From an uncultured Clostridia bacterium (GTDB lineage Bacteria; Bacillota; Clostridia; Oscillospirales; Ruminococcaceae), in contig CAMGJS010000015.1 of assembly GCA_946056455.1 (NCBI GenBank), positions 1-12,090 of the forward strand: DNA of 12,090 bases. Reading direction: 5' to 3'. Position 1 is the first letter of the stretch. Each line of letters starts with the position of its first letter. A program made the position numbers and the translations under genes. This document shows, piece by piece, positions 1,651 to 10,604 of the stretch. The notes beneath the pieces were generated by a model. It worked only from the letters and a program-made list of their open reading frames with translations, was not told where the DNA came from and did not search any database.

Positions 1651-2079
1651 TTATGCTCTCATATTTGAGATTTTCTTTTTCATTTTAAGGACATTCTTGC
1701 CCGACTCTCTTTCATAGCAAAGGCTGTCAACCATTCTTTTCGCTATGAAAATGCCAAGTCCGCCGACCTTTCTTGTTTCAATAGCAACAGAAATATCAGG
1801 CTCTTCTCTGTCAAACGGGTTGAACGGAACACCGCTGTCCTTCATAATAATGAGAATTTCTCCGCCTGAGACCTCGCATCCGACCTCAACGCTTCCCGAA
1901 CCTTCGGGGTAAGCATAGGAGGCGATGTTTATGAAAATTTCCTCGCAGGCAAGGCGCAGGTCCTTAATCACTCTTTCGGCAGAGGGATAAAGATTACCTT
2001 CGTCTTTTATTTTTGTGAAAACAAATTCCATTATGTCCTCGTAGGACTCAGGGGTTGCCTTAACGGTAATATAATCCAT
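1651..2079 (-). CDS. RsbW/SpoIIAB-type anti-sigma factor serine kinase (HATPase_c_2)
   Basis: The protein of 142 aa is a single GHKL ATPase domain of the kind that phosphorylates a STAS antagonist on serine and, when the antagonist is phosphorylated, holds a target sigma factor inactive. The N box carries E47 and N51 (EEIFIN, 46-51), the G1 box is KDSGVPFNPF with D81, and the glycine-rich lid is GGLGIFIAKRMVD starting at 106. Length and layout match RsbW-like proteins. An in-frame ATG six codons earlier (2097) has no ribosome site. The start at 2079 follows GAAGGTGG (2091-2084), which favours the shorter form, though its spacing is tight. It is last in a minus-strand operon with an RsbU-like phosphatase, an RsbV-like STAS protein and GlgX, with a gap of 31 bases after glgX. 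No sigma factor gene follows, so the partner held by this kinase is unknown. Confidence 0.88.
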   Translation of the reverse strand: MDYITVKATPESYEDIMEFVFTKIKDEGNLYPSAERVIKDLRLACEEIFINIASYAYPEGSGSVEVGCEVSGGEILIIMKDSGVPFNPFDREEPDISVAIETRKVGGLGIFIAKRMVDSLCYERESGKNVLKMKKKISNMRA

Positions 2080-2110
2080 CTCTCCACCTTCTTTCATAAA
2101 AATTTTCGTT

Positions 2111-4255
2111 TTAAACTTCTCCCTCGGTATAGTTTATAATCTGTCTGTTTTCCTCGGAGATTTTCTTTCCGATTAAAACTGCACAGCTTCGGGATTGAAG
2201 GAATATATCTCCGCCGTGATAAAGCTCGGGAACTTCATTGAAGCTCTTCGCCTCATTTCCCGTATCGGCAACGATATGCCAGCCGAAGCCCACGGGCAGT
2301 TCGGGGAGCTGATAAGACCTTGTTTCCCATATCGTGTTCATAATATAGTATATAAAAATGTCTTCCTCGGTATGATACTTGTGCTTTGTTTCAACAAACA
2401 TTACGGCAAGCGTCATTGACGAACCATTCTTGTCGAGTTGCCAGGCTTTTGTCTGATGCCACGATACCTCGGGGTAGCCAAGCTCGGTCTTGGGAGCGTC
2501 ATAGCTCGGGTTGCGCAGAACGGGGTGCGCCTTGCGGAAATTTATCATACCCTTTGCAAAGTTGAAAAGGTCTTTGTTCTTTTCAAGATTGTTCCAGTCA
2601 AGCCAATAAATCTCGTTGTCCTGACAATATGCGTTGTTGTTGCCGAACTGAGTATTGCCGAATTCATCGCCCGAAAGCATCATCGGTGTTCCTCGGCTCA
2701 TAAGGAGCATTGTGAACGCATTCTTGCGCTGTCTTGTGCGAAGAGCGAGAATGTCGGGGTTCTGAGTTTCGCCCTCTTCTCCGCAGTTCCAGCTGTTGTT
2801 GTCGTTTGCGCCGTCACGGTTGCCTTCTCCGTTAGCCTCGTTGTGCTTGTATGTGTAGCTTACAAGGTCATTTAAGGTAAAGCCGTCGTGGCAGGTGATA
2901 AAGTTTATAGAAGCGTTTGCGCTTCTTTTGCCGTAAAGTCCCGGAGAGCCCATTATTCTGTCAATTATGCAGTCAACGGGCAAGCCGTCACTTTTAAGGT
3001 GTCTTCTTATATCGTCACGGTATTTTCCGTTCCATTCAGCCCATCTTCCTTGTGTAGGGAACGAGCCGACCTGATAAAGTCCGCCTGCGTCCCACGCCTC
3101 TGCAATAAGCTTTGTACTGCTGAGTATAGGGTCGTGTTCAAGTGCTTCAAGCAAGGGCGGATTTTCCATCGGAGCGCCGTTCTGGTCTCTTGAAAGAATA
3201 GACGCAAGGTCAAATCTGAAACCGTCTATGTGATACTCCGAAACCCAGTAGCGCAGGCAGTCGAGTATCATATTTCTTACAACGGAGTTGTTGCAGTTAA
3301 AGGTATTTCCACAACCGCTGAAATTGTAGTAATATCCTTCGGGGGTAAGAAGATAATAGGTTGCGTTGTCAAGTCCCTTGAACGAAAGCGTGGGACCGTA
3401 TTCGTTGCCCTCGGCGGTGTGGTTGAAAACAACATCGAGGATAACCTCAATCTTATTTTTGTGGAGCTGTTTGATAAGGTTTTTCAGCTCGTCAACTTCC
3501 ATTCCGTATCTTCCCGTTGCGGCATAAGCGGCTTTCGGAGCGAAAAATCCGACTGTCGAATATCCCCAGCAGTTATAAAGTCTTTTTCCGTTGTTGTCAA
3601 CATTGCAGTTGTCAAGCTCGTCAAAAGAAAAAATAGGCAGAAGTTCGATACAATTTATTCCGAGTTCTTTCAAATAGGGTATTTTGTCGATAATTCCCGC
3701 AAAGGTTCCTGGGTGGCGGATATTGCTGGATTGGTGCTTTGTGAACGCTCTTACATTCGCCTCGTATATAACAAGGTCCTCCATCGGAATTTCAAGAGGT
3801 CTGTCGCCCTCCCAGTTGAAATCGTCATAGACAATTCTTCCGCGGTTGGTAAATTCGGTATAAGCGGCGCTGTTCACTCCCCAGACATTTCTTCCGCTTA
3901 CTCCCTTGGCATAAGGGTCTAAAAGAATTTTTGTCTTGTCAAAGCGGTGTCCCTTTTCGGGAGCAAATTCGCCGTCAACACGATAGCCGTATTCAAGCGT
4001 TTCATAGTCAAGGTCGAAAACTATCATCGACCACACGCTTCCTATGCGGTATTCCTTGGGGAACGGAATTGTCGCAAAAGGCAGAGCCTCTCCCCTTTTA
4101 TAGAGAACAAGCTCAACGGAGGTCGCATTTTTTGAGAATATTGAGAAGTTTACTCCGCCCGAAACTATGGTTGCGCCAAAGGGCAGACTCTTTCCCTCTC
4201 TTATCCTCATTCCTCGGTAAATTCTTGTCGGGTATCCGTCAATTCTGTTTATCAT
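2111..4255 (-). CDS. glgX: Glycogen debranching enzyme, isoamylase type (GH13)
   Basis: The 714-aa cytoplasmic enzyme hydrolyses alpha-1,6 branches of glycogen or limit dextrin. Residues about 20-130 form an N-terminal CBM48 domain (GVNFSIFSKNATSVELVLY). The GH13 barrel follows: region I VILDVVFNHT (271-280), region II DGFRFDLAS with nucleophile D349, region III LIAEAWDAGG with acid/base E386, and region IV TCHDGFTLNDLVSY with D457. The motif order, the AWDAGG signature and the length fit GlgX/TreX-type debranching enzymes rather than pullulanase. A C-terminal beta domain covers roughly 610-700. ATG 4255 has an AGAAGG site about 10 bases upstream. The gene lies between the STAS gene (23-base gap) and the RsbW-like kinase gene, so it should be made together with a partner-switching regulator. 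A glycogen branching enzyme gene lies about 6 kb away on the same strand. Confidence 0.95.
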   Translation of the reverse strand: MINRIDGYPTRIYRGMRIREGKSLPFGATIVSGGVNFSIFSKNATSVELVLYKRGEALPFATIPFPKEYRIGSVWSMIVFDLDYETLEYGYRVDGEFAPEKGHRFDKTKILLDPYAKGVSGRNVWGVNSAAYTEFTNRGRIVYDDFNWEGDRPLEIPMEDLVIYEANVRAFTKHQSSNIRHPGTFAGIIDKIPYLKELGINCIELLPIFSFDELDNCNVDNNGKRLYNCWGYSTVGFFAPKAAYAATGRYGMEVDELKNLIKQLHKNKIEVILDVVFNHTAEGNEYGPTLSFKGLDNATYYLLTPEGYYYNFSGCGNTFNCNNSVVRNMILDCLRYWVSEYHIDGFRFDLASILSRDQNGAPMENPPLLEALEHDPILSSTKLIAEAWDAGGLYQVGSFPTQGRWAEWNGKYRDDIRRHLKSDGLPVDCIIDRIMGSPGLYGKRSANASINFITCHDGFTLNDLVSYTYKHNEANGEGNRDGANDNNSWNCGEEGETQNPDILALRTRQRKNAFTMLLMSRGTPMMLSGDEFGNTQFGNNNAYCQDNEIYWLDWNNLEKNKDLFNFAKGMINFRKAHPVLRNPSYDAPKTELGYPEVSWHQTKAWQLDKNGSSMTLAVMFVETKHKYHTEEDIFIYYIMNTIWETRSYQLPELPVGFGWHIVADTGNEAKSFNEVPELYHGGDIFLQSRSCAVLIGKKISEENRQIINYTEGEV

Positions 4256-4278
4256 TAAAAAAGACCTTCTTTTCGGGA

Positions 4279-4614
4279 TTATGCCATTGCGGCGGTTGCG
4301 TTGTCAAGGCTGTCGTAGCAGTTGAATATAGTGCCGAAGCCCGTCATATCCATAACATCTTTGACATCGTCCGTAAGGTTTGCAAGAGCTATGTTCTCGC
4401 CGAGCTGACGGCTTCTCTTTCCGAGAAGAAGCAGAACTCTCAGCCCCGAGCTTGAAACATAGGTACAGTTTTTCATATCGATGACAACATTCTTATTGTT
4501 CTCGACAACCTCCATAAGCTGTTGCCTTGCTTCCTCGCTCGAATTGTAGTCAAGCTCTCCGCCGAGTGAAACGACAGTTATATCTCCCGGCAGCATTTTT
4601 GTTTCAAGTTTCAT
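4279..4614 (-). CDS. STAS-domain anti-sigma factor antagonist (RsbV/SpoIIAA-like)
   Basis: This single STAS domain of 111 aa has the usual length of SpoIIAA/RsbV proteins. The core strand and helix reads VVIDMKNCTYVSSSGLRVLL (43-62). By alignment with SpoIIAA Ser58, the phosphorylated serine is most likely S55 within SSSG (54-57). The DSSG motif of B. subtilis proteins reads SSSG here, a common variant. In partner switching the unphosphorylated form binds the RsbW-like kinase and frees its target, and the phosphorylated form is reset by an RsbU-type phosphatase. Both partners are encoded in the same operon: the phosphatase 35 bases upstream and the kinase downstream after glgX. The start is certain from a very strong ribosome site, GGAGGGG (4628-4622), 7 bases before ATG. 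Confidence 0.92.
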   Translation of the reverse strand: MKLETKMLPGDITVVSLGGELDYNSSEEARQQLMEVVENNKNVVIDMKNCTYVSSSGLRVLLLLGKRSRQLGENIALANLTDDVKDVMDMTGFGTIFNCYDSLDNATAAMA

Positions 4615-4649
4615 ACAAATACCCCTCCGTTTATCAATAAATCGTATGC

Positions 4650-6797
4650 CTATTTAAAAAATCTTGTGATTAACATTGTTATATCGTCCGTCTGGTCCGC
4701 ACCGTAAACGAATTCATAAATATCCTCGGTAACGCTTGCGATTATCTCGTCAAGAGTCATATGCTCGGCAGAAAAGCTGTTCAAAAGGTCATAAAGCCTC
4801 TTTTTGCCGTACTGGCTCTTGTCCTTTGTCGCCGCCTCGGTGACTCCGTCGGTATAAAGGAAAATCATATCGCCTGAGTTCAGAGTGATAGTATCGGTTT
4901 TGTAAACGGTTTCTTCATCTCCTGCCAGAAAGAGATTTTTTGTGATGCTTAAATTGTCAAAACCCTGTTTATACCGATATATCAGCGGCGGAGTGTGTCC
5001 TGCGTTTGAATAGCTGAACTCGCCCGTCTTTATATTCAGTATTCCGAAAAAGGCGGTGACGAACATTGCCGCGTCGTTATTTATACAAAGCTGTCGGTTG
5101 ACTTCGGTGAGTATCTCTCCGGGCGTCATTCCCGATTTTGTTCTGTTGTTTATGAGCGTTTTGTAAATCACCATAAACAGCGCGGCAGGAACACCCTTGC
5201 CCGAAACATCGGCGATAACCATTGCAAGATGGTCGTCATCCACCATAAAGTAGTCGTAAAAATCTCCGCCCACTCCCTTTGCGGGGGTTATGGACGCTGA
5301 AATCTCAAATTCGGTGTTTGCGTCAAAATCCCTTGCGTTGTTCGGCAGAATAGACATCTGAATTTTCTTCGCGATGTCAAGCTCGGCGATGTGGTGTTCT
5401 TTTGCCTTTGATTCGGATTTTATCCGCTCGATATGCTCGTTAAGCTCTTCCGTCATATTGCGGAAGGCGTCGGCAAGGTCTTCTATTTCATCGCCCGTTT
5501 TAATGTCGCAATCAAATTCAAGCTTGCCGTGAGTAATGTTCTTTACGCTTTCGGTGAGGTCGATAATAGGCTTTGTCAGCTTTCTTGACAAGGTGTTTCC
5601 CAGTGCATATGTGAAAATAACAAGAGAAACAAGCGCGATAAGTCCGAAAACGGTTACAAAAAGAACATATTTTATAACTTTATCCGAAGCGTTCCGAGAA
5701 AGAAGTATAATGTCGTTCTTTATCTGCTCGGACGGCGACAGCGCTTGCTCGGTGTTGATATATGCGGCGACTATCCATCGCTGGCTGTCAAGCCTTGTGT
5801 GCGCGACATAAAGGTGTCTGTCTCCTATGGTAAGCGATTTTGTTCCGCTCTCGGTGTGAATTATGCGGTCGTATATGTCCATCTTTTCAGATATGTATTC
5901 GCTCAGGTCCACATCTTTTTCGCGCGTCCATTCGGTATTAGCTACAACTACCTTTCCCTCTTCGGAAAAGATTATAAATTTACAATCAAGAGAATCGTCA
6001 GAGTCAAGCTGTTTTTTTAACTTGTCCGCACGGACATTTAACCCTGCAACTCCCAAAAAATCGCCGTTTTCGGCATATACAGGCTTTGAAAAGCATATTA
6101 TCTCTTCTCTGCCGAAAGGGTCGCTGTGAACCTCTGAAACAACAAACTCGCCCTGTTTTTTTGCGTTTGTGTACCAATCCCGCTCCTTGAAATCAAAGCT
6201 TTTGTTTTCTTCAAGAAATTTCTTGTCGCTCACCACATAGAAAAGTCCGCTTTCGGAAGCGTAATAAGCGTCCGACACAACATTGTCAGATAAAGCAGTA
6301 CGGCTCAATGTCTTTCCCACATTTGCGTATATGGAAGCGTCGTTCGCAAGAAAATCCCTGTCCGCGTCCTTTGAATAAAGAAGATACGGTACCGAACCTG
6401 CTTTCGACTCAAAGGACAAGCTGTATCCCGTAGGCAAAAAGCTTTCGGGCGATTTGTTTATCTCTTCAATGACAACGGCGGTGTTATCAAGATAATTTTC
6501 GTACTTTGTGAACAGCTCTTCAATATATTCCGCCTTGCTTGTAGAAACAAGCAGAAGCTCCTTGGCGGTGAGCTCTTCTATCGCGGCGCGGCTGTTGTCG
6601 GCGGCGTGGTCGCTCATATCTCTGTATATATGTATGAACTCCGATGATACCTTGTATACTCCGAAATAGGCGACAGCCGCAGTTATTATAAGCGAAACGA
6701 GCGAAACTCTCGTGATAAGAGCAAGGACCTTGCTTTCTATCGAAGATTTTTTCTTTTTCAGCTCTGCCACCGCCTTTCCGATAAAATCAATATACAA
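4650..6797 (-). CDS. Membrane sensor PP2C-type phosphatase (dCACHE-HAMP-SpoIIE/RsbU-like)
   Basis: The protein of about 715 aa has a cytoplasmic lysine-rich N-terminus, a first membrane helix (about 31-49), a large extracellular region with a dCACHE-like fold, a second helix (about 377-398), a HAMP linker (about 400-452), a coiled segment and a C-terminal SpoIIE/PP2C phosphatase domain (about 500-712). The sensor shows RDWYTNA (206-212) and later FSKPVYAENGDFLGVAGLNV, typical of CACHE domains. Metal-binding residues are D512 (GGDFYDYF), D530 (ADVSGKG), D650 (YTDGVTEA) and the aspartates at 704-705 (QTDDIT). The likely role is to sense an external ligand and dephosphorylate the STAS partner. 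The only conventional start is TTG 6797, but it lies at the predicted transcription start and lacks a ribosome site. A CTG at 6761 (residue 13) follows AAAGGCGGTGG and may be the real start. It is the first gene of the operon. Confidence 0.93.
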   Translation of the reverse strand: MYIDFIGKAVAELKKKKSSIESKVLALITRVSLVSLIITAAVAYFGVYKVSSEFIHIYRDMSDHAADNSRAAIEELTAKELLLVSTSKAEYIEELFTKYENYLDNTAVVIEEINKSPESFLPTGYSLSFESKAGSVPYLLYSKDADRDFLANDASIYANVGKTLSRTALSDNVVSDAYYASESGLFYVVSDKKFLEENKSFDFKERDWYTNAKKQGEFVVSEVHSDPFGREEIICFSKPVYAENGDFLGVAGLNVRADKLKKQLDSDDSLDCKFIIFSEEGKVVVANTEWTREKDVDLSEYISEKMDIYDRIIHTESGTKSLTIGDRHLYVAHTRLDSQRWIVAAYINTEQALSPSEQIKNDIILLSRNASDKVIKYVLFVTVFGLIALVSLVIFTYALGNTLSRKLTKPIIDLTESVKNITHGKLEFDCDIKTGDEIEDLADAFRNMTEELNEHIERIKSESKAKEHHIAELDIAKKIQMSILPNNARDFDANTEFEISASITPAKGVGGDFYDYFMVDDDHLAMVIADVSGKGVPAALFMVIYKTLINNRTKSGMTPGEILTEVNRQLCINNDAAMFVTAFFGILNIKTGEFSYSNAGHTPPLIYRYKQGFDNLSITKNLFLAGDEETVYKTDTITLNSGDMIFLYTDGVTEAATKDKSQYGKKRLYDLLNSFSAEHMTLDEIIASVTEDIYEFVYGADQTDDITMLITRFFK
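6762..6780 (-). promoter_or_regulatory. Ribosome site that may decide an unusual CTG start of the phosphatase
   Basis: The minus-strand sequence AAAGGCGGTGG (6777-6767) differs from the ideal AAGGAGGTG by one base over its core. It is followed by 5 bases and then CTG at 6761-6759. No ATG, GTG or TTG start lies at a suitable distance. If used, the mRNA leader would be about 34 bases and the protein would lose its first 12 residues, leaving the first membrane helix intact. Confidence 0.5.
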
Positions 6798-6954: not shown

Positions 6955-8394
6955 ATGAAAGAAAACAAGCCGATTTTGGCGGCAGTATCGGTTTTTGCCG
7001 CATTTACGCTGTCATCCTGCTCTGTTGCAGATTATGTCGGTCACTTAGGACTTGACGAAACGACGGCGGCGACTTCTCCCCTTTATACAACGGCAACTCC
7101 TTACAGGGATACGACCGTTACGACCTCGGAAACTACATTCTATCAGGACGGCACGGAATTCGGTCTTATACCCGTAGAAATACCGCAAAAGCCTAAAAAT
7201 ACGCCCGTTGCGGTAAAAGTTGCCGACGGTGAAAGCGTTAAAATATCGGGGGAAGACGTTATCTCAAAGGACAGCGATGTTTCGGGGGGAATGTCAAAAA
7301 ACCGAGGAAAGCTCACCCTTGAAAAATCAACGCTTGTTTCAAGTTCAAAATCGAGCGACACCTTTGAAAGCCGTTTTTTCGGAACTTCCGCCGCGCTTCT
7401 TTCAATGCCGTCAAGCAATATTGCCGTCAGCGACAGCGTTGTGACAACAACGGGCAACGGTTCCGCCGCCGCTTTCGCATACGGAACAGGCTCTGTCATA
7501 GATATTTCAAACAGCGAGATTTCAACCCTTAACGCAAATGCAAGAGCACTTGCAACAACATATCACGGAAGTATCTTTGCGGCAGGCACAAAAATATCCA
7601 CAAACGGAGCAAATTCGCCTGCTGTCTTTATAGGAACGGGCAAGGGCACCATAAATGTCACGGGGGGAGAAATTTCAACCCTCGGAGCAAACTCCCCTGC
7701 CGTATATTCCGAGGGAACAGCCGCTTTAACGGGCGTCAAGATAAAAACCGCGTCCTCCGAGGCGGCAGTAGTAGAGGGAAACAATTCGGTGTCGCTGACA
7801 GGCTGTAATATTGAAACAGACGCTACGACCTTTACCCTTTACAGAAGCAATTCGGGCGAAACATCAAAGGGGCTTGCAACGCTGAATATTGTGGGCGGAA
7901 GTATAGAGTCGAAGTCGGGCGCAATGTTTTATGCCGCAAACACCGAGGCAAAAATCTGTCTTCAAGGGGTAAAGATAAATTCAAATTCTACATCGCTTGT
8001 CAACGTCGTTGCAAATGAAAAATGGGGAAATGTCGGCGAAAACGGGGCGAAAGTAACGCTCGTTGCGAATTTTCAGAAGTTAGAGGGCGACATCTATGCC
8101 GATAATCTGAGCGAAGTAACGCTCGACCTTTCTTCAATGTCGGAATTTACGGGTACTGTCAACTCACGAAATACCGCAAAAAAAGCGAATGTTGTCCTTG
8201 ACGCTTCAAGCAAGTGGATACTTCGGGGAAATTCGTTTGTTTCTGCTCTGACGCCGGGTATGGCGGATTTTTCAAACATAGAGGACAACGGCTACACCAT
8301 ATACTACGATGCAGACAACCCGACAAATGTATATCTTAACGGTGAAACGATAACGCTTAAAAGCGGCGGACTTCTCACCCCTATGACAAAATAA
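6955..8394 (+). CDS. Secreted lipoprotein with Thr-rich linker and beta-solenoid (right-handed beta-helix-like) domain
   Basis: No named family is recognised with confidence in this 479-aa protein. Residues 1-22 form a lipoprotein signal peptide: a lysine near the start, a hydrophobic core, and the lipobox LSSC with the lipidated C22. A threonine-rich linker (about 36-62, many TT pairs) probably spans the cell wall. Residues about 85-420 consist of short, irregular repeats rich in Gly, Asn, Ser and Thr with alternating V/I, such as GANSPAV at 218-224 and 245-251 and GTINVTGGEIST, SVSLTGCNIET and ATLNIVGGSIES. Each has the strand-turn look of one coil of a right-handed beta-helix, as in pectate-lyase-like or adhesin proteins. 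No catalytic residues of a polysaccharide lyase are evident, so a structural, adhesive or ligand-binding role is as likely as an enzyme. ATG 6955 follows a perfect AAGGAGGTG (6941-6949). The gene is divergent from the sensor phosphatase operon. Confidence 0.85.
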   Translation: MKENKPILAAVSVFAAFTLSSCSVADYVGHLGLDETTAATSPLYTTATPYRDTTVTTSETTFYQDGTEFGLIPVEIPQKPKNTPVAVKVADGESVKISGEDVISKDSDVSGGMSKNRGKLTLEKSTLVSSSKSSDTFESRFFGTSAALLSMPSSNIAVSDSVVTTTGNGSAAAFAYGTGSVIDISNSEISTLNANARALATTYHGSIFAAGTKISTNGANSPAVFIGTGKGTINVTGGEISTLGANSPAVYSEGTAALTGVKIKTASSEAAVVEGNNSVSLTGCNIETDATTFTLYRSNSGETSKGLATLNIVGGSIESKSGAMFYAANTEAKICLQGVKINSNSTSLVNVVANEKWGNVGENGAKVTLVANFQKLEGDIYADNLSEVTLDLSSMSEFTGTVNSRNTAKKANVVLDASSKWILRGNSFVSALTPGMADFSNIEDNGYTIYYDADNPTNVYLNGETITLKSGGLLTPMTK

Positions 8395-8395
8395 G

Positions 8396-8433
8396 AAATC
8401 GCCTTTCGGGATTTATCCGATAAGGCGATTTTT
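8396..8433. terminator. Terminator of the lipoprotein gene, overlapping the end of the convergent gene
   Basis: A 14-bp stem pairs 8396-8409 with 8417-8431, with a single bulged T at 8421, around a 7-base loop and ending in a T run. The stop codon of the minus-strand gene (8415-8413) lies in the loop, so its last six codons form one arm. On the minus strand the other arm ends in GATTTC followed by TTATTTT, so it probably works in both directions. Confidence 0.8.
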
Positions 8434-9222
8434 GTTGTTATTTTCTGCTATTGACCGTTTCTTGTTATCATACATATCCTCAAATTCGGTAAGACAGCTC
8501 CAGTATCTTTTGGGCATAAGGTTCATTCTCAGCTTTTCGTTGTAACGCTCCTTTATGCCGATAATGTTGTAGTAGCCTTTCCACAATTCACGATAAAAAC
8601 GCTCCTTTTCATCGGGTGGAGGTAGCTCAAAATCCTCGACAAATGCAATCTCGGAGCGGTGATTTTTATGGATAAGCACCGCCTTGTGCGTTTTGTCATA
8701 GATAAGAAAATCAAGGTTTCCGATGCGCTGTTCATAGTGATAAACGATATAGGGCAGAACAAAGTTTTTCGGCTCGATAACGGAAGCAAGCACTCCTTCA
8801 TTCTCAGAAAAACGAAGAAATTCACGGTAAAAGTGCGCCTCGTTTGAAAAGTTCTTGACAACAAAGAACATCTGCCCAACTGTATCATCGGCAAGCATTG
8901 TATCGACCTTTTTTCCGTGTTTAACGCCCAAAAGAATATATTTTAAAATCAGCATTTCTTTTTCTTCGGCGTTTGAAAAATAGCATTTTCTCACATTGTC
9001 AAGCGCAAGCGAAGATACTTTAGTTTTAATATAATCCTGCATTTTCTGCGATACGGCTCTGTCCGAAAAAATTTCTTTTTCAGCAAAAAGAAAGGTCTGC
9101 CCGTCGCCTTGCGGAATAATTCTCTCGGGCATTTTTTTATCCGAAAAAGCCTCATAAACGGCGGACATAAGACCGTCAAAGCTACCGTCATAGCGGTAAA
9201 TCAAAGCTGTCCCGTCAGACAT
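8413..9222 (-). CDS. TIGR03915-like partner of a DNA-repair radical SAM protein (no glycosylase domain)
   Basis: The 269-aa protein matches what I know of the TIGR03915 family (probable DNA metabolism protein), encoded next to the TIGR03916 radical SAM protein. In many bacteria it is fused to a uracil-DNA-glycosylase-like domain. Visible features are an N-terminal IYRYDGSFDGLMSAVYEAF, a central section around FLIYDKTHKAVLIHKN (172-187), and a C-terminal ELWKGYYNIIGIKERYN and MPKRYWSCLTEF (236-247). The chain ends soon after in an Asn/Lys-rich tail, so the glycosylase-like domain is absent here. Its exact reaction is unknown. The start overlaps the end of the radical SAM gene by 22 bases, with GGAGG about 10 bases before ATG 9222, so the two are translationally linked and should be SOS-controlled together. 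Confidence 0.85.
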   Translation of the reverse strand: MSDGTALIYRYDGSFDGLMSAVYEAFSDKKMPERIIPQGDGQTFLFAEKEIFSDRAVSQKMQDYIKTKVSSLALDNVRKCYFSNAEEKEMLILKYILLGVKHGKKVDTMLADDTVGQMFFVVKNFSNEAHFYREFLRFSENEGVLASVIEPKNFVLPYIVYHYEQRIGNLDFLIYDKTHKAVLIHKNHRSEIAFVEDFELPPPDEKERFYRELWKGYYNIIGIKERYNEKLRMNLMPKRYWSCLTEFEDMYDNKKRSIAENNNKNRLIG

Positions 9223-10541
9223 TTCTGCATATCCTCCATTGAAATATTCTGCTCGTTGTCAAAGAACGAAAGCTGTTCCATCTTCCCCCTACTTAAAGTC
9301 ATTCCGCTTTCATCAAGCTTTTTGACAATGCTTGCCGACATCAGCTCGCGCATTACAGCTGAATTTGTAACTTTGAGACCTTCCGCCCTCTTGCCCTTGC
9401 AGGTAATAAAATACTGCGCTCTTTTAAGGACAATGCCCAGTTTTTTTAAGTCCTTATAATCAAGCGACGCGCTTTTCCTTGCAAGCATTATCCGTTTTGC
9501 CGAATTTACGCCTATTCCGGGCACTCTAAGCAACATTTCATAAGGCGCTTTATTCACTTCAACGGGGAAAAATTCGGGGTGGTCGACCGCCCAGTTGCAC
9601 TTAGGGTCCAGAAGCGGATTGAATGAGTCGTGCTTTTCGTCAAGAAGCTCACCTGCCTCAAAGCCGTAAAATCGTAGCAACCAGTCCGCCTGATAAAGAC
9701 GGTGTTCACGCAGAAGAGGCGGTTTTGTATCCTTTGAGGGGAGATATTTTTCATCCCCCACGGGAACATAAGCGGAGTAGAAAACTCTTTTAAGGCTGAA
9801 TTTTTTATAAAGCGCCTCCGAGAGCCTTATTATCTGAAAATCGCTGTCTGGAGTAGCTCCTATTATCATCTGCGTGCTCTGCCCTGCGGGGACAAACTTC
9901 GGCGCCGCTTTGTATTTGACTATTTCTGTATGATTTTGTGCGATGCCCGTTTTTATGTTGTGCATAGGCAAAAGGATATTCCTCTTTGACTTATCGGGCG
10001 CTAATTTTGCAAGGCTTTCCTGCGAGGGAAGTTCAATGTTTACGCTCATTCTGTCAACAAGAAAGCCTAAGCGTTCTATAAGCAAAGGGTCCGCCCCGGG
10101 TATCGCCTTGGCGTGAATGTAGCCGTTGAATTTGTATTCAGAGCGCAGAATTGAAATCGCCTCTATAATCTGTTCGCAGGTATAATCGGGGTTTTTGATT
10201 ATGCCCGAACTTAAAAAAAGCCCCTCGATATAGTTTCGTTTATAAAAGTTTACGACAAGCTCGGCAAGCTCACGGGGTTCAAATCTTGCCCTTTCTACAT
10301 CGTTGCTTTTTCTGTTTATGCAGTATTTGCAGTCGAAAATGCAGTAGTTGGTCATAAGCACTTTGAGAAGAGAAATACATCTTCCGTCGGCGGCAAAGCT
10401 ATGGCATATTCCGCAGGAAACAGCGTTGCCTATACCGTCCGCCGTTCCTCCTCTGTCAGAGCCGCTTGAAGTGCAGGCGGCGTCATACTTTGCGGAATCA
10501 CCGAGTATTTTAAGCTTTTCAAGCAGTTCCGTAATAATCAC
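9201..10541 (-). CDS. Radical SAM protein, putative DNA modification/repair (TIGR03916-like), with helix-hairpin-helix
   Basis: From the GTG at 10541 the protein has 446 aa. It holds the radical SAM cluster motif CIFDCKYC (C67, C71, C74) preceded by cysteines at about 43, 46 and 55 (SCGICHSF, GRC). A C-terminal helix-hairpin-helix LLRVPGIGVNSAKRI (about 337-351) suggests DNA binding. The N-terminal LGDSAKYDAACTSSGSDRGG fits the TIGR03916 family, whose biochemical role is unproven. The frame stays open to TTG 10604 and contains ATG 10562. However, TTGACA at 10604-10599 is the promoter -35 box, and ATG 10562 would have only about a 7-base leader. Family proteins begin close to the ELLEKLKIL segment, so I choose GTG 10541, although its ribosome site is poor; ATT and CTG starts cannot be excluded. 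It is the first gene of a two-gene operon with the TIGR03915-like partner. Confidence 0.88.
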   Translation of the reverse strand: MIITELLEKLKILGDSAKYDAACTSSGSDRGGTADGIGNAVSCGICHSFAADGRCISLLKVLMTNYCIFDCKYCINRKSNDVERARFEPRELAELVVNFYKRNYIEGLFLSSGIIKNPDYTCEQIIEAISILRSEYKFNGYIHAKAIPGADPLLIERLGFLVDRMSVNIELPSQESLAKLAPDKSKRNILLPMHNIKTGIAQNHTEIVKYKAAPKFVPAGQSTQMIIGATPDSDFQIIRLSEALYKKFSLKRVFYSAYVPVGDEKYLPSKDTKPPLLREHRLYQADWLLRFYGFEAGELLDEKHDSFNPLLDPKCNWAVDHPEFFPVEVNKAPYEMLLRVPGIGVNSAKRIMLARKSASLDYKDLKKLGIVLKRAQYFITCKGKRAEGLKVTNSAVMRELMSASIVKKLDESGMTLSRGKMEQLSFFDNEQNISMEDMQKCLTGQL

Positions 10542-10555
10542 CCCAAAATAAAAAT

Positions 10556-10569
10556 CGAACATATGTTCT
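10556..10569 (-). promoter_or_regulatory. LexA (DinR) box 2, over the transcription start
   Basis: The minus-strand sequence AGAACATATGTTCG contains an intact GAAC-N4-GTTC palindrome and matches the ten fixed consensus positions in nine. Its centre is 27 bp from that of box 1, and it covers the predicted transcription start, so two LexA dimers could bind together. Confidence 0.88.
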
Positions 10570-10575
10570 GATTTT

Positions 10576-10604
10576 ATTATACAGAATATATGTTCGATTG
10601 TCAA
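10576..10604 (-). promoter_or_regulatory. Consensus sigma-A promoter of the radical SAM operon
   Basis: On the minus strand a perfect TTGACA (10604-10599) and a perfect TATAAT (10581-10576) are spaced by 17 bases. Predicted transcription start is near 10569. Such a strong promoter combined with overlapping LexA boxes is typical of tightly repressed SOS genes. Confidence 0.92.
10583..10596 (-). promoter_or_regulatory. LexA (DinR) box 1, between -35 and -10
   Basis: The minus-strand sequence CGAACATATATTCT matches the Firmicute LexA consensus CGAAC-N4-GTTCG at 8 of 10 fixed positions. It fills most of the 17-base promoter spacer, so a bound repressor would block RNA polymerase. Confidence 0.82.

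Follow-up and report, generated by a model that had tools for sequence, protein, structure and literature searches.

A radical-SAM/DUF4130 gene pair of an uncultured Clostridia bacterium is a probable SOS operon for DNA repair at the replication clamp

The 12,090-nucleotide window analysed here is contig 15 (CAMGJS010000015.1) of a 1.33-Mb draft genome, 74% complete, from an uncultured Clostridia bacterium of the Ruminococcaceae. On its minus strand lies a two-gene operon in which a gene for a radical S-adenosylmethionine (radical-SAM) protein of family TIGR03916 is followed by a gene of family TIGR03915/DUF4130. Judged from sequence, this is probably an SOS operon encoding a repair enzyme tethered to the replication clamp, which would act with its DUF4130 partner on a replication-blocking lesion.

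The promoter of the operon consists of TTGACA (-35; 10599..10604) and TATAAT (-10; 10576..10581) on the minus strand, with a 17-base-pair (bp) spacer. Within it are two copies of the GAAC-N4-GTTC operator that marks the LexA regulon. Box 1, which reads GAACATATATTC on the gene strand and has one mismatch (10584..10595), lies in the spacer, and box 2, a perfect GAACATATGTTC (10557..10568, minus strand), lies over the probable transcription start, 27 bp from the first; both registers are kept in homologues. This arrangement bears out what a preliminary description of this DNA had claimed for the promoter. A Shine-Dalgarno-like sequence, GGGGTGAT, can be read at 10537..10544 (minus strand), and a full-length LexA is encoded in the same genome.

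To place these operators in a wider set, we scanned homologous promoters, each of up to about 300 bp, from 29 loci of the window's family (the top 30 of 60 genomes over the family cut-off, minus the window's own) and from 80 loci of named genomes (the best 80 of 592 relatives). Removal of five duplicates reduced these 109 to 104 distinct promoters. With one mismatch allowed, 84 of the 104 carry a box, versus 8 for the control pattern CTTG-N4-CAAG; perfect boxes were found in 54 and two boxes 20 to 40 bp apart in 28, versus none for the control in either case. The scan, which the preliminary description had proposed as a check, thus came out clearly in favor of its claim. A fair sigma-A match is present in 75 of the homologous promoters, and in 66 of these a box falls into one of three registers (control, 0 of 75). 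Counted from the first base of the -10 hexamer, the box centers lie at -40 to -36 (n = 11), at -12 to -9 in the spacer (n = 37), or at +13 to +24 over the transcription start (n = 47). Spacer and start boxes occur together, as in the window, in 18 of the 75, and all three registers are occupied in four loci (L093, L096, L118 and L121), where boxes are about 28 bp apart. The boxes stand at fixed registers around the -10 hexamer and are therefore placed where a repressor would block polymerase. In a genome of the same genus, G148, the only close pair among 19 perfect boxes (32 bp apart) precedes a homologue with 77% identity, at 22 and 54 bp from its matched start. LexA/SOS control of the operon is strongly supported by these promoter sequences.

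Single boxes are unremarkable in the window, where 8 sites with at most one mismatch compare with 5.0 expected and 26 of 200 shuffles reach 8. Across the genome there are 24 perfect sites versus 63 for the reversed pattern, so single boxes are not enriched there either. With counts no higher than chance in window or genome, single-box statistics were dropped as evidence for LexA control. When the window was shuffled 1000 times with dinucleotides preserved, a pair as good as the real one (20 to 40 bp apart, at most one mismatch in total) arose once, and a looser pair at the same spacing, in which either box or both may have one mismatch, arose in 39 shuffles.

We compared the operon with recA and lexA, using recA and lexA loci from 30 genomes that overlap largely, but not wholly, with the 29 family genomes. 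Perfect boxes were present in 17 of 29 radical-SAM promoters, versus 1 of 28 recA promoters (p = 7e-6) and none of 24 lexA near-promoters (p = 2e-6); with one mismatch allowed, the counts were 21 of 29, 15 of 28 and 4 of 24. In the window's family, the operon thus has better LexA boxes than either recA or lexA. None of the 24 family genomes has a perfect box near lexA, so autoregulation through GAAC-N4-GTTC is not evident. Transcription of lexA may begin further upstream; the gene just before lexA in the window's genome is one that we take from its sequence to be murC. The lexA gene at L020:2526-3110 (G000 contig 103) has no box just upstream. A separate observation in G000 (contig 69) is a perfect LexA box at L028:94-105, within the spacer of a TTGACA-N17-TATACT promoter ahead of a gene for a 105-amino-acid sigma-70 region-4-like protein, which is likely to be another LexA target.

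More distant members of the family have different operators. The alphaproteobacterial LexA box is GTTC-N7-GTTC, and all ten alphaproteobacterial members have GAAC-N7-GAAC 31 to 51 bp upstream of the matched start; elsewhere in 53 kb of these loci the pattern occurs at two sites, and a control pattern occurs four times in all. Both Caballeronia loci have CTGT-N8-ACAG. LexA boxes of the form GAAC-N4-GTTC in Bacillus and CTGT-N8-ACAG in E. coli have been described (PMC4234289). The alphaproteobacterial and Caballeronia members of the present set carry operators that match their own LexA type.

A different kind of regulator appears in nine distinct loci (L047, L053, L057, L058, L083, L088, L108, L112 and L138), where a gene combining an XRE-type helix-turn-helix (XRE-HTH) with an S24 peptidase, LexA/CI-like, lies upstream on the same strand. 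The search covered flanks of about 1.5 to 2.5 kb and used a profile built in part from S24 proteins of the same clade; all four XRE-S24 proteins tested matched HTH_3 and Peptidase_S24. The gap to the radical-SAM gene is 28 to 168 bp in seven loci and about 1.1 to 1.2 kb in L138 and L088. LexA boxes are present in none of the nine S24-linked loci versus 84 of the 95 others (p = 6e-8). The nine genomes gave no LexA-model match over the DNA-binding half, and one of them, G163, has a single peptidase-only match above the score cut-off. By our own tally, a full-length LexA match occurs in 33 of 36 tested genomes with boxes versus 0 of 9 S24 genomes (p = 2.5e-7). There are exceptions: G088, G175 and G176 have a box and no LexA match; G010, G144 and G165 lack a box at the radical-SAM gene, a full-length LexA and a linked S24 gene; and G116 and G066 have LexA and no box with at most one mismatch. 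Completeness is low in several genomes (66% in G052 and 64% in G144, for example), so a LexA that was not found may be absent from the assembly.

A candidate S24 operator, AC(A/T)AC-N5-GT(A/T)GT, is present in the promoter region of six of the nine S24 genes themselves and at the radical-SAM promoter of L107 (G165). It occurs in one of three recA loci from S24 genomes (L245), with no further occurrence among 28 recA loci. In L138, by eye, the 16-mer GTGAACACTCCTATTA precedes the radical-SAM gene, and its inverse can be read before the S24 gene. In L088, a gene for a 416-amino-acid protein (L088:1237-2484), which from its sequence we take to be a Y-family (DinB-like) polymerase, lies between the S24 and radical-SAM genes. 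We infer that the linked XRE-S24 protein is a damage-cleaved repressor that replaces LexA, making it a candidate regulator for LexA-less genomes; relatives in which the usual regulator was not found seem nonetheless to retain damage control over the pair. Together with operators better than those of recA and lexA, the S24 link where full-length LexA was not found suggests a central place for the pair in the SOS output of these Clostridia.

Both genes belong firmly to their families, as the preliminary description had named them. The radical-SAM protein (9201..10532, minus strand; 443 amino acids counted from the codon aligned with the starts of congeners) scores 667.8 bits against the NCBIfam profile TIGR03916, over positions 1-406 of 415 and above the curated cut-off of 343.5. 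Its partner (8413..9222, minus strand; 269 amino acids from an ATG) scores 218.8 bits against TIGR03915 (cut-off 112.25) and 143.8 bits against PF13566. Because the genes overlap by 22 bp (9201..9222, minus strand), coupled translation is suggested; an overlap of exactly this length recurs in 52 of 113 homologous pairs, or 48 of 109 without duplicate loci. Pairing with TIGR03915 or TIGR03914, which we take to be the mark of the TIGR03916 family, is found in the window; a DUF4130 gene follows downstream on the same strand in 113 of 116 loci, or 109 of 111 once duplicates are removed, and for 109 of these 113 pairs the distance is at most 200 bp. The pair is widespread: of 148 genomes sampled in the window's family, 60 score over the cut-off, and members are present on 158 of 72,556 plasmid records. 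NCBIfam names the family rSAM_link_UDG, with a putative role in DNA modification or repair.

Conservation in the radical-SAM protein was assessed in an alignment, A2, of 35 sequences from loci and matches, and in 15 distant members taken from the 158 plasmid records and spread over genera; a further alignment, A1, covered the window with 50 of 120 listed homologues. The radical-SAM motif CX3CX2C (Cys64, Cys68 and Cys71; 10320..10343, minus strand) is invariant in A2 and in all 15 distant members. Three further conserved cysteines, Cys20 (10473..10475), Cys43 (10404..10406) and Cys52 (10377..10379, all minus strand), might possibly form an auxiliary cluster or a second metal site. A helix-hairpin-helix region with a GIG core lies at 9444..9563 (minus strand); the preliminary description had named a helix-hairpin-helix in this protein. 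Its HHH_3 match in Pfam (21.7 bits) falls below the cut-off of 27, yet the family profile matches a ComEA-related helix-hairpin-helix chain in the PDB (E 0.005). The closest solved folds to the radical-SAM protein are lipoyl synthase and HydE.

The C-terminal tail carries QLSFF (residues 420-424; 9261..9275, minus strand), a motif of the beta-clamp-binding type, whose consensus is of the form QL[SD]LF; most relatives have QLSLF in its place. In the window protein this segment has a predicted local distance difference test (pLDDT) score below 50, in keeping with a flexible tail. The motif is present in 75 of 105 sequences by a strict definition and 95 of 105 by a loose one, versus none of 933 control tails taken from six-frame open reading frames longer than 150 amino acids, not all of which are genes. 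The ten misses include L068 and L125, both without a readable tail, and QLxL-type tails occur in all 15 distant members. We found no paper in the open-access literature on a clamp motif in these radical-SAM proteins. This tail would dock the radical-SAM protein on the beta-clamp. A conserved C-terminal CLTGQ may be explained simply by the partner gene starting within this end of the radical-SAM gene.

In both Proteobacterial partners that we scanned, one alpha- and one betaproteobacterial, DUF4130 is part of a TIGR03914 fusion. The aligned alpha- and betaproteobacterial partners (L215, with a misread frame, was left out) have in their uracil-DNA glycosylase (UDG) part GEQPG, a KRRIH/KRRLH-like loop ending in His, and an HP(S/A)..LR motif. 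This C-terminal domain resembles UdgX, an enzyme that becomes covalently attached to the abasic site of its own making (PMC10359453); the words DUF, operon and SOS do not occur in that paper. The window's partner differs in having no UDG domain, and the one UDG-family match in the window's genome is elsewhere than the operon. In fold only, the model of the DUF4130 partner resembles DHH/DHHA1 phosphoesterases, a grouping that includes RecJ, Cdc45 and PAP phosphatase. Unlike these, the DUF4130 consensus has neither a DHH nor a GGGH motif. Pfam found DUF4130 in all 51 members searched, with scattered weak matches and no DHH family among them, and a PDB sequence search with DUF4130 returned nothing below E 0.25. 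The model suggests, weakly, that DUF4130 is possibly a divergent DHH-like domain.

In the mechanism that we propose, LexA dimers on the observed spacer and start boxes would exclude RNA polymerase in the resting state, and RecA-driven cleavage of LexA after damage would open the promoter. The radical-SAM protein would hold DNA through its helix-hairpin-helix and be tethered through QLSFF to the replication clamp DnaN. A 5'-deoxyadenosyl radical would be made at the CX3CX2C cluster, and Cys20, Cys43 and Cys52 may hold another metal or Fe-S site. With its DUF4130 partner, which may be divergent DHH-like and which in Proteobacteria is joined to a putative uracil-capturing UdgX-type domain, it would process a replication-blocking lesion. 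LexA repression, damage induction and action on DNA have good support as predictions. Clamp docking is a less firm prediction, and the weak ones are the role of the extra cysteines, the DHH-like nature of the partner and, as the weakest step, the lesion, which would probably be uracil- or abasic-site-related. The three operator types, the clamp-type tail, the Proteobacterial UdgX-type fusion and the Y-family polymerase locus support the role in damage repair or tolerance put forward in the preliminary description; its further suggestion, radical-based repair of a base lesion, is conjectural. The tail, the three extra cysteines and the fusion narrow the search to a DNA enzyme at the replication fork. 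More tentatively, the pair could represent a second class of radical-SAM DNA repair beside spore photoproduct lyase. This class would be SOS-induced and clamp-docked, with a DHH-like and often UdgX-fused partner, and would repair uracil- or abasic-derived lesions or release UdgX-type protein-DNA crosslinks where forks have stalled; it would remain under damage control as the LexA operator type changes and where a linked S24 repressor takes the place of LexA.

Several observations weigh against this interpretation. Twenty of the 104 promoters have no box; nine of these have the S24 gene, and among the other eleven we see by eye sites with two mismatches in L042, L048, L075, L086 and L102, an S24-type site in L107, and no site in L037, L049, L092, L097 and L128. 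No operator of the scanned types is present in two Bacteroidota loci and one Gemmatimonadota locus. The start codon of the window's radical-SAM gene is abnormal, the region of Cys20, Cys43 and Cys52 is modelled with pLDDT mostly below 50, and the window's pair lacks a UDG domain, its partner matching TIGR03915 alone in NCBIfam. The DHH fold matches have low template-modelling (TM) scores of 0.3-0.42. Homology to DHH proteins by sequence was rejected: hhalign, run with 160 DUF4130 sequences (the L148 row being one residue) against 18 NrnA-type and 29 longer DHH proteins, gave probabilities of 0.1-0.2%, no better than a radical-SAM control.

Many radical-SAM proteins act on proteins, and this one might modify a protein rather than DNA, for example by maturing the DUF4130/UdgX-type partner or a clamp-bound protein. 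Its linkage to the partner in 113 of 116 loci and the solved folds closest to it, neither of them DNA enzymes, fit this idea, whereas the helix-hairpin-helix and the clamp-type tail point to DNA; we consider it unlikely, though the strongest of the rivals. SOS control is common in mobile elements, and the plasmid-borne members would suit a role in SOS-linked mobile-element or phage conflict instead of repair. Such a role is very improbable for a pair that has no match in PADLOC, has metabolic neighbors and is present in 60 of 148 family genomes. Lower still do we rate chance matches of the two boxes with an operon outside SOS control. The lack of enrichment of single sites and the frequency of looser pairs would allow it, but a pair this good is rare in shuffles, and the positions and three operator types are conserved.

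The operon might also encode a second enzyme like spore photoproduct lyase (SplB) that directly reverses a UV photoproduct. SplB is a DNA repair enzyme and, like the window protein, a radical-SAM protein, but is of a different family: NCBIfam at E ≤ 0.001 matches TIGR03916 only and no spore photoproduct lyase model. To our knowledge SplB has no DUF4130 partner. The named relatives include gut anaerobes, little exposed to UV, and the UdgX-type fusion suggests another lesion. On the other side, SplB-type radical-SAM genes are described as SOS-controlled in several bacteria (PMC8565304), and one paper, which links DUF4130 to SplB-like photolyases and UDGs, predicts it to be a mutagenesis-related enzyme (PMC3765255). 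We regard this explanation as improbable, and prefer a clamp-tethered enzyme acting on another replication-blocking lesion.

We take COG4277 to be the TIGR03916 family. A UDG-linked two-gene operon of Bacteroidetes, COG1573-COG4277, is described as an SOS-regulated base-excision system, with Verrucomicrobia and Alphaproteobacteria cited (PMC8565304); it resembles the window's operon in its two-gene layout and in SOS regulation, which is probable for the window, and differs in its UDG. The core SOS regulon of Gram-positive bacteria is said to include 'a radical SAM protein', whose family is not named there (PMC7739468). LexA regulation of such a pair is not new, since CAC3343-CAC3344 of Clostridium acetobutylicum was placed in a predicted LexA regulon in 2013 (PMC3828012). 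We liken that pair to ours by description only; the passages of that paper concerning it do not mention a clamp motif, operator positions or S24 replacement. New here are the clamp-type tail, the three extra conserved cysteines and, weakly, the DHH-like fold of the partner.

The start of the radical-SAM gene most likely lies near 10530-10541. At the position where congeners have ATG (L198) or TTG (L043), the window has ACG (10530-10532), and an in-frame GTG (10539-10541) falls inside the Shine-Dalgarno sequence. P0121, a protein 97% identical to the window's, reads alike in this region, and its sequence would begin at an ATG inside operator 2. The extent 9201..10604 given in the preliminary description is a mechanical frame whose TTG lies inside the -35 hexamer.

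The pair has metabolic neighbors in the window. At 6955-8394 the window encodes a Ser/Thr-rich protein of 479 amino acids, which by eye has a possible lipoprotein signal and for which neither Pfam nor NCBIfam gives a match at E ≤ 0.001. At 1651-6797, genes for HATPase_c_2, STAS and dCache-HAMP-SpoIIE phosphatase proteins flank a glycogen-debranching-type gene and form a module of the partner-switching type.

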